Shown here piece after piece: positions 10,760-63,762 of a DNA stretch of 64,000 nt. This DNA comes from Deltaproteobacteria bacterium. GTDB taxonomy: Bacteria > Desulfobacterota > Desulfobulbia > Desulfobulbales > JAJRZW01. The stretch is from positions 1 through 64,000 of the forward strand of contig JAJRZW010000022.1 of NCBI GenBank assembly GCA_024275015.1, in the 5' to 3' direction. Position numbers and translations under genes: made by a program. Numbering within the stretch: the stretch's first letter is position 1; every line of letters starts with the position of its first letter. The notes beneath the pieces are model-generated. The model saw only the letters and a program-made list of their open reading frames with translations, did no database searches and had not been told where the DNA came from.

Positions 10760-10794
10760 ATGGATCCGGGCGCTGTCGGTCCGGTCGGGAGTCA

Positions 10795-10925
10795 AATCCG
10801 GTTGGCCAAAATAAATTTCGGCCAACCTTTTTATTTCACCTTCACCGGTTTTTCAATCCGGCAAAATCGGCGGCGCGGACATCAGCCGCGACCAGGCCGT
10901 TTTTTCAACGGACTGGTAAGGGTTT
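10795..10925 (+). repeat. Family B multi-hairpin element, copy 1 (lacks first hairpin)
   Basis: Starts at hairpin 2 (ggttggcc ... ggccaacc) and continues through caccggtttttcaatccgg, gcggcgcggacatcagccgc and the end ttttcaacggactg. The first hairpin is absent here, but a separate, inverted first-hairpin fragment lies about 200 bases downstream (11128). The remaining bases up to the reductase gene at 11226 are AT-rich around 11030-11095 and may hold its promoter, which I cannot define further. Confidence 0.85.
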
Positions 10926-11127
10926 CTGGTGGTTTCCTCCCCAGGCGGTTAACGCTGATACATCGTGGCATATTCTTTAATAATTTTAAGCGTATGCGAC
11001 ATTGTGGCAGTTGACGGAGTACTACATTTGGGAGTAAAAGAAATAGATATGGAAAATTAAAAATTTAATTAATTGCTTAATGATCCGTTTTAAAATGGAC
11101 TGTTTGTGGCGCATGAACGCGCCGGAG

Positions 11128-11164
11128 TTGAAAAGCCATGGACGGTTTTTTCAACGCTCTGTTT
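11128..11164 (-). repeat. Family B first-hairpin fragment
   Basis: gttgaaaagccatggacggttttttcaac with the flank gctctgttta corresponds to the inverted terminal hairpin of family B. It lies about 60 bases before the start codon of the molybdopterin reductase, inside the likely 5' leader. Confidence 0.7.
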
Positions 11165-15220: not shown

Positions 15221-15330
15221 CAGGCCGTTGAAAAAGCCGTCCATGGCTTTTTCAATTCCGGTTGGCCAAAACAAGTTTCGGCCAACCTTTCGATTTCACC
15301 GGATTTTCAACCTGGCAAAATCGGCGGCGT
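15221..15330 (+). repeat. Family B multi-hairpin element, copy 2 (3' truncated)
   Basis: Clean first hairpin gttgaaaaagcc/ggctttttcaa, second hairpin ggttggcc/ggccaacc and third hairpin gattt-ca-ccgg/ctgg-ca-aaatc, ending at gcggcg. Hairpins 4 and 5 are missing. It lies 35 bases before the MerR start. The interval 15064-15220 shows no gene or recognisable element. Confidence 0.88.
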
Positions 15331-15365
15331 ATATTGATGATTTTATTCCCGGGAGATTTATTTAT

Positions 15366-21477: not shown

Positions 21478-21523
21478 CATCCTTGCATACAGTCCGTTGA
21501 AAAACGGACTGTATGCAAGGATG
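21478..21523. other. Perfect 20-bp inverted repeat
   Basis: catccttgcatacagtccgt and its exact reverse complement are separated by a six-base loop, tgaaaa. The inner half is the family B terminus (cagtccgttgaaaaacggactg); the outer half is specific to this copy. There is no T run after it. Confidence 0.9.
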
Positions 21524-21544
21524 GACGGCTTTTTCAACGGTCTG
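21490..21544 (-). repeat. Family B internal-deletion derivative
   Basis: Contains the two ends of family B joined directly: cagtccgttgaaaaacggactg, then gatggacggctttttcaacggtctg. The middle hairpins are missing. The remaining gap up to 21725 contains nothing I recognise. Confidence 0.8.
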
Positions 21545-27367: not shown

Positions 27368-27417
27368 TTTGTTTCTCCTGTGAATTCTATCGGGTTTCCA
27401 TCCCCGGACGATTACCA

Positions 27418-27566
27418 GTTCGTTGAAAAAACTGACTGTACGCGGCTGATGTCCGCGCCGTCGATTTTGCCGGGTTGAAAACTCCGGTGAAATCGAGAGA
27501 TTGGCCAGGACTTGTTTTGGTCAACCGGAGTTGGAAAAGTCATGGACGACTTTTTCAACGGACCTG
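27418..27566 (-). repeat. Family B multi-hairpin element, copy 3 (full length, inverted)
   Basis: Read on the minus strand it gives the whole chain: gttgaaaaagtcgtccatgactttt, ggttgacc...tggccaat, gattt-ca-ccgg...ccgg-ca-aaatc, the gcggac segment and the end with ttttttcaacg. It begins about 50 bases upstream of the slyD start codon. Confidence 0.88.
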
Positions 27567-30217: not shown

Positions 30218-30240
30218 CAATATTGTTTTTCCGGGATAAT

Positions 30241-30391
30241 AGAGTGTTGAAAAAGCCGTCCTGGCTTTTTCAATCGCCGGTTGGATAAAACAAGTTTCAT
30301 TCAACCTCTCGATTCCATCGGTTTTTTCAACCCGGCAAAATCGGCGGCGCGGACATCTGCCGCGACCAGCCCGTTTTTCAACGGGCTGATA
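30241..30391 (+). repeat. Family B multi-hairpin element, copy 4 (full length)
   Basis: All five hairpins: gttgaaaaagcc/ggctttttcaa; ggttggat/attcaacc; ccgg-containing stem; gcggc/gccgc; agcccg/cgggct. In hairpin 2 the consensus ggttggcc/ggccaacc is changed on both sides so that pairing is kept. It directly follows engB and may end that transcript. Confidence 0.92.
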
Positions 30392-42975: not shown

Positions 42976-43131
42976 ACAGGCCGTTAAAAAATCCGTCCAT
43001 GGCTTTTTTAACCCCGGTTGGTCAAGAAAAGTTTCGGTCGATCTCTTTATTTCACCGGATTTTTTTTGTCCGGTGAAATCGGCGGCGTGTTCATGTGCCG
43101 CACATAGCCCGTCTTTCAACGGGCTGTTAAC
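42976..43131 (+). repeat. Family B multi-hairpin element, copy 5 (full length)
   Basis: Five-hairpin chain following tsaC. Hairpin 3 is extended here to a perfect atttcaccgga/tccggtgaaat, because the internal ca/ca loop of other copies has become ca/tg pairs. Hairpin 5 is agcccg/cgggct. Confidence 0.9.
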
Positions 43132-48082: not shown

Positions 48083-48199
48083 GGTCGCCTGCTGAGTCTA
48101 TCAAAAACAGCCGGTAAAAAAAAGAGGTGAATCCTGCCTGGATCTGATCTACCTTTTTGTGCTGTCGCGTGTTAGTATTCTTAATCTGCGTACCGTACT

Positions 48200-48343
48200 T
48201 TGAAAAACGGACTGTATGCGGCTGATGTCCGCGCCGCCGGTTTTTCCGGGTTGAAAATGCCGGTGAAATCGAGAGGTTGGCCGGAGTTTGTCTTTGGTCA
48301 ACCGGAGAGAGAAAAAGCCATGGACGGCTTTTTCAACGGTCTG
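48200..48343 (-). repeat. Family B multi-hairpin element, copy 6 (inverted)
   Basis: Minus-strand reading gives gttgaaaaagccgtccatggcttttt, ggttgacc...ggccaacc, gatttcaccgg...cccgg, the gcggac segment and the ttttcaaag end. It lies in the 651-base divergent gap between the GGR-like gene and the M23 peptidase gene. Confidence 0.87.
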
Positions 48344-48362
48344 GTAAGCGTGTCATGAATAT

Positions 48363-63372: not shown

Positions 63373-63560
63373 TTCAAGACTCCCTTAATTAGTTGTGGAA
63401 AACAGTCCGTTTAAGGGTGTCTTGAAAATGAGAATTTTTGTCCGAGGCCAAGAAATGAGCAAAATTAAAAAAGCGCAGCATATCAGGCATATGTGAACAT
63501 TTTTAATTTTGTTCATGACGCCGGGATCGGGCGAAAAGACCATTTTTCAAGCTACCCTTA

Positions 63561-63713
63561 ACAGACTGTTGAAAAAGCCGTCCTGGCTTTTTCAACACCC
63601 GGCTGGCCAAAACAAGTTCCGGCCAACCTCTCGATTTTATTGGATTTTTTAAAACCCAATAAAATCGGCGGTGCGTCCATGCACCGCGACCAGTCCATTT
63701 TTCAACGGACTGT
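63561..63713 (+). repeat. Family B multi-hairpin element, copy 7 (full length, most divergent stems)
   Basis: From acagactgttgaaaaa to tttttcaacggactgt. Hairpin 3 is gattttattgg/ccaataaaatc, hairpin 4 gcggtgc/gcaccgc and hairpin 5 agtcc/ggact. All differ from the consensus on both sides of the stem yet remain paired. It separates ssb from the gene at 63763. The interval 63373-63560 holds no gene that I can support. Confidence 0.92.
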
Positions 63714-63762
63714 CAAACCTACATCAATATAAGACCAGAGTCGGCAAAAGAAAGACCCTTTT

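Follow-up and report, generated by a model that had tools for sequence, protein, structure and literature searches.

The 64,000-nucleotide stretch analysed here (the window; positions 1 to 64,000 of contig JAJRZW010000022.1 in the Desulfobulbales assembly GCA_024275015.1) carries near its right end a small repeat folded into five hairpins, whose relatives elsewhere differ in the sequence of their stems while retaining the pairing, and this raises the question of what keeps the arms of these hairpins matched. Compensatory base-pair changes normally serve as proof that an RNA is functional, and a preliminary description of the window had read them as selection on a folded single strand, either RNA or single-stranded DNA during transposition, with near-constant loops as possible binding sites. 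Paired changes can also be produced by template switching without selection (Monttinen and Loytynoja 2022, PMC8794818), and therefore paired change alone is no proof of selection.

The reference full-length copy of this element, here termed family B, occupies 63562..63712 on the forward strand, as placed from its sequence and a genome search, and runs for about 150 bp from CAG to CTG, borders that were set in the target-duplication analysis from copies aligned with their flanks. On its left lies TTAA (63558..63561) and on its right TCAA (63713..63716), with one mismatch to TTAA, the sequence and the family-wide duplication statistics marking these as the two copies of the target duplication. 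Hairpin 1 (63568..63596, forward, as are the other four) is a 12-bp stem of GTTGAAAAAGCC and GGCTTTTTCAAC closed by the loop GTCCT, its arms holding the terminal-repeat motif GTTGAAAAAG in both orientations; hairpin 2 (63601..63628) pairs GGCTGGCC with GGCCAACC around AAAACAAGTTCC, within which a partial upper stem is possible; hairpin 3 lies at 63632..63667; hairpin 4 (63668..63687) pairs GCGGTGC with GCACCGC around GTCCAT; and hairpin 5 (63691..63712), which includes the right terminal inverted repeat, pairs CAGTCCATT with AACGGACTG around TTTC. The stems quoted previously are essentially right, with small corrections in hairpins 2 and 3: the perfect stem of hairpin 3 in this copy is CGATTTTATTGG/CCAATAAAATCG and measures 12 rather than 11 bp, and the 30-kb copy has GGTTGGAT/ATTCAACC as its hairpin 2, including a single G-T pair, the subfamily consensus ATCCAACC pairing perfectly. 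The 63-kb copy is itself not a perfect exemplar, since it holds unpaired changes in hairpin 2 (GGCTGGCC/GGCCAACC) and in hairpin 5 (CAGTCCA versus CGGACTG).

All seven copies attributed to the window are present where they had been placed. Besides the reference element, full copies are found at 30240..30388 (forward, of the GGTTGGAT/ATCCAACC subfamily, with ATAA flanks), at 42977..43126 (forward, with TTAA on both flanks and a perfect hairpin 3), and at 27416..27563 and 48193..48344 (both reverse, of an older subfamily); the copy at 10793..10915 (forward) lacks hairpin 1, and the one at 15221..15331 (forward) is truncated in hairpin 4 and lacks hairpin 5. A short derivative of about 79 bp (11084..11162, reverse) matches only the two element ends, and a tiny one at 21489-21544, likewise made of two element ends, has at its left a 30-bp perfect palindrome, CATACAGTCCGTTGAAAAACGGACTGTATG. 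A second repeat family adjoins the left side of the 63-kb element, in the form of an imperfect 181-bp inverted repeat (63402-63582) that is about 70% self-complementary over its length and has the TTAA target inside its ACCCTTAACAG end. CCC often precedes TTAA at family B targets, and one of the two repeats may be the landing site for the other.

Beyond the window, a genome-wide search of the 2.45-Mb assembly (76 contigs) recovers at least 150 near-full copies scoring above 100 bits, with matches to the 63-kb copy reaching 1.5e-75, far above chance; 150 full-length and 46 partial sequences were extracted. Several contigs of this assembly end inside family B copies (C70:1, C12:1, C33:1, C4:1 and C62:1, and the ends of C62, C19 and C55), so that the assembly breaks on the element, and its copies are more numerous than counted; insertion sequences that occur in many copies may likewise be absent because of such breaks. 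The copies are discrete, dispersed and non-coding, with ends of the form CAGNCYGTTGAAAAAG that constitute terminal inverted repeats (CAGACTGTTGAAAAA... and ...TTTTTCAACGGACTG). They are bordered by NTAN duplications, the target consensus from aligned flanks being mostly TTAA and C-rich on the left side. An exact 4-bp duplication is present at 69 of 123 own copies, where 13% would be expected if left and right flanks were unrelated; among the same 123, three have a duplication of 2 bp and none one of 3 or 5–9 bp. An exact 4-bp duplication also borders 27 of 33 elements in related genomes. Given this duplication, the terminal inverted repeats and the absence of a gene, family B has the anatomy of a MITE and is a MITE-type DNA transposon. 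The window as a whole matched no RNA family in Rfam at gathering level, no match to family B was found in viral contigs or, by distant blastn, in plasmids, and literature searches returned no description of it.

The precise 4-bp duplication, in the own and in other genomes, contradicts the single-stranded-DNA part of the earlier proposal, which corresponds to transposition of the HUH kind. REPIN/RAYT and IS200/IS605 palindromic elements resemble family B in their short palindromic units and high copy number, and a multi-hairpin anatomy would suit a single-strand (HUH/IS200-IS605 or REPIN-like) transposon with hairpins serving as transposase recognition structures. IS200/IS605 transposition, however, is not known to make a target duplication, whereas family B has one of precisely 4 bp and ends that are terminal inverted repeats, so this origin is scarcely credible. 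The duplication instead points to a cut-and-paste (DDE-type) transposase as the mover. IS5-type and other DDE insertion sequences generate 4-bp YTAR/TTAA duplications, a TA-centred form that family B shares, and they are a possible source of the mobilising transposase, to be taken only as a lead; a transposase with family B ends was absent from the DDE_Tnp_1, DDE_Tnp_1_6 and DDE_5 matches in five genomes, own and related, and 20 further stretches around terminal repeats, beyond the listed copies, held only shorter derivatives and no transposase. A MITE can outlive its autonomous partner. At one own locus (L152, G000:C73:32949-34701), a 42-bp palindrome of the terminal repeat stands just before a fragment of a DDE_Tnp_1-like transposase that the contig end truncates, and it may be linked to a mobilising element. 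A pair of terminal repeats spanning 574 bp (L079:9292-9865) around a putative CBS-domain-like gene was put down to two fragments that lie together by chance.

The elements fall into size classes that bear on which parts are needed for movement. Among the sequences examined, about 130 measure 140–159 bp, 15 measure 90–99 bp and 17 measure 40–49 bp, with exact target duplications at 7 of the 15 and 2 of the 17, respectively. In a 92-bp form, hairpin 2 is missing together with the left arm of hairpin 3, and in a 98-bp form the sequence running from the loop of hairpin 3 to that of hairpin 5 is absent; the joints of both lie at the repeated motif TTTTTCAAC. Near-identical 92-bp copies occupy at least three sites with different targets (CTAA, TTAT and ATAA); thus, the short form moves, and the parts that it lacks are not needed for movement.

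The claim of paired, stem-preserving substitutions proves to be not only real but stronger than the window had shown, as they also separate genomes. Homologues with five hairpins and matched different stems are found in G001 of the same genus (9 copies) and in G010 (at least 150), G027 (10) and G044 (5), which belong to other families of the same order; G035 has one weak copy. Between genomes, hairpin 2 takes forms such as GGTTGGCC/GGCCAACC, GGTTGGGC/GCCCAACC, GGTTGGAT/ATCCAACC and GGAAAGCC/GGCTTTCC, and hairpin 4 forms such as GCGGCGC/GCGCCGC, GCGGCAC/GTGCCGC, GCGGCCC/GGGCCGC, GCGCCGC/GCGGCGC and GCGATCC/GGATCGC; though the stems differ, most lineages have the same five hairpins as their minimum-energy fold. 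Of the cells in a 39-element alignment, 89.4% are paired, and 28 of 41 tested pairs show two-sided change, as against a mean of 15.4 in shuffled and 11–19 in slid controls, the structure having been taken from one of the aligned sequences, which inflates the contrast with slid versions somewhat. Cells changed on both sides number 172 (48.7 shuffled, at most 55 slid), the covariation score is 0.319 versus 0.127, and at several pairs three or four Watson-Crick types occur. Hairpin 1 is excluded from these figures, as the aligner displaces its right arm by one base in some of the lineages. Covariation across lineages thus exceeds the controls, which leave phylogeny partly in. The loops, in contrast, are not generally near constant as had been supposed: between lineages they differ at 0.30–0.39 of positions and stems at 0.22. 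Of the suggested binding sites, only short conserved motifs survive, namely TCC in the tips of hairpins 1 and 4 and a CTC linker between hairpins 2 and 3, and not the loops in general. Two further variants may be recorded here. In G001 (L178:1497-1646 and L181), a five-hairpin homologue has different ends (GATGGMCTCGTAAAAAC): both arms of hairpin 1 and both of hairpin 5 have changed in concert, no target duplication is recognisable, and the sequence suggests a switch in transposase specificity. In G010 (L149–L151), many copies match model positions 1–90 only and have hairpin 3 enlarged by dozens of bases, so that the element exists there in a second size class.

Within the own genome, the matched changes first seen distinguish subfamilies (CC/GG to AT/AT in hairpin 2, CC/GG to TT/AA in hairpin 3, and C-G to T-A in hairpins 4 and 5), and many copies share them by descent. 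Single copies compared with their nearest relatives tell of a different regime, with 438 one-sided changes of Watson-Crick pairs against 41 two-sided changes that keep the pairing, and with mutation rates of 4.5% at paired and 5.6% at unpaired positions. As the stem rate is close to the unpaired rate and one-sided changes greatly outnumber two-sided ones, landed copies largely decay with little or no protection of their stems; nor do they show a strand preference, the one-sided changes comprising 155 to G-U, 138 to A-C and 145 others. The original reading of selection on a folded strand is thus only partly supported: the paired change is real, between genomes as well, but individual copies decay almost independently of pairing. 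Some two-sided change is nevertheless in excess of controls: 42 instances in own copies versus 5–19 in slid controls, and 18 private Watson-Crick doubles (present in at most four copies) versus 2–6. Of the private changes from one Watson-Crick pair to another, 13 of 17 are double transversions, a ratio biased by the rare-state filter, which favours unusual types. Double transversions allow no G-U intermediate, and they fit template switching or compensation before insertion. Per-site tests of independent pairs on the phylogeny of own copies had too few informative pairs and low power.

If a single strand is folded, it is more likely the one opposite to that first described, judging from models in which this strand is predicted to fold more stably as RNA in every lineage consensus. 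The mismatches in these consensi, read on the strand first described, include 63 A-C (G-U on the other strand) versus 22 G-U, which by distinct positions reduce to about 11 versus 4 (binomial p ~0.12), with few independent events, and the strand preference is suggestive. On the opposite strand, most lineages have the hairpin tips AGGAC, AUGGAC and AGGGAC, with GGA usual in hairpins 1 and 4. Such tips would suit a mobile CsrA/RsmA sponge, in which an opposite-strand small RNA sequesters CsrA through hairpins 1 and 4, and the likeness to CsrA-binding RNAs of the RsmW/CsrB type extends to the chain of hairpins. Consistent with it, Rfam RsmW (RF02809) matches the opposite strand over its full length at 10 of 16 G010 loci, the best match scoring 44.1 bits (E = 1.2e-4); in-vitro binding of RsmW to RsmA is documented (PMC4950607); and csrA is present in 6 of 6 genomes. 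Nevertheless, every RsmW score is below the gathering cut-off of 52 bits, making the match only a lead, and none is found in the own, G001, G027 or G044 elements; two own subfamilies have lost GGA from hairpin 4 (GCGGACATCAGCC); csrA is too common to be diagnostic; and, unlike these RNAs, family B is a repeated mobile element. A sponge is accordingly very improbable. There is an equally faint chance that the transposon owes its spread, or its toleration, to a transcript that folds as a regulatory-type RNA, such as a CsrA-titrating hairpin chain; if true, a DNA transposase would have multiplied a structured RNA and taken it from one bacterial family to others.

The genic context allows another reading, in which copies are kept as cis-acting RNA elements that terminate transcription or stabilise the mRNA of neighbouring genes. 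By simple ORF-based gene calls, nearly all copies are intergenic, at a median of 45–56 bp from a gene end; by inspection, hairpin 1 resembles a bidirectional terminator (AAAAAGCC...GGCTTTTT); and processing within mRNA is known for MITEs such as Correia and ERIC (reviewed in PMC10969869). Against this stand the unbiased orientation relative to genes (++ 12, -- 11, -+ 13, +- 12; background 63, 46, 56, 55) and the scant stem protection and missing G-U preference of landed copies, which render such a role improbable, if slightly less so than a sponge.

What keeps the arms matched is then chiefly a matter between mutation and selection. The same MITE might owe its paired changes purely to template switching between the arms of imperfect palindromes, its fold being without function. 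The precedent cited at the outset, the private two-sided changes of single copies with their prevailing double transversions, and copies in which the palindrome extends past the consensus stem (in L009 and L010 hairpin 1 is palindromic out to the element end, and L064 776-925 has a G-to-T/C-to-A pair in hairpin 3) all accord with this, as do the dispensability of hairpins 2–3 for movement and the loops, which are no more conserved than the stems and so argue against loop recognition. These last two are also the strongest points against a selective component. On the other hand, landed copies accumulate about ten one-sided changes per two-sided one, so that homogenisation alone must be slow, yet the lineage consensi are near-perfect; the same five hairpins recur in the same order across bacterial families; and the apparent strand asymmetry is not predicted. 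A purely mutational origin is consequently possible but rather unlikely, and we lean towards selection acting on active elements, much of the matched change arising by template switching. Under this preferred account, which we regard as on balance probable, a transposase acting in trans on the ends would move family B and leave the 4-bp duplication; the five hairpins would be old and belong to the propagating lineages, each rewriting its stems in matched pairs; and a landed copy would then decay with its stems little or not protected. Active elements would be favoured when a single strand, most likely the opposite-strand transcript, folds into a stable chain of stem-loops, and template switching in the palindromes probably supplies many of the matched changes.

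Family B thus takes its place beside prokaryotic MITEs such as Correia/NEMIS, ERIC/IRU, RUP, BOX and the Coxiella QMITEs, which are similarly gene-less elements of 100–200 bp with terminal inverted repeats, target duplications, many, mostly intergenic copies and stable predicted stem-loops (PMC10969869). It differs from them in an interior that is a fixed chain of five separate hairpins, with stems rewritten pairwise between genera and families. Within one bacterial order, the fold is handed down through the transposon lineages that propagate, and it is not protected in every copy. Genomes hold hundreds of copies each, both young and old, several lineages are independent, and copies once landed go largely unprotected; this system can therefore separate selection on a fold from the homogenisation of palindromes by template switching, a question raised in 2022 (PMC8794818). 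More generally, family B is a case of a mobile element that, across the families of one order, keeps its shape for longer than its sequence.
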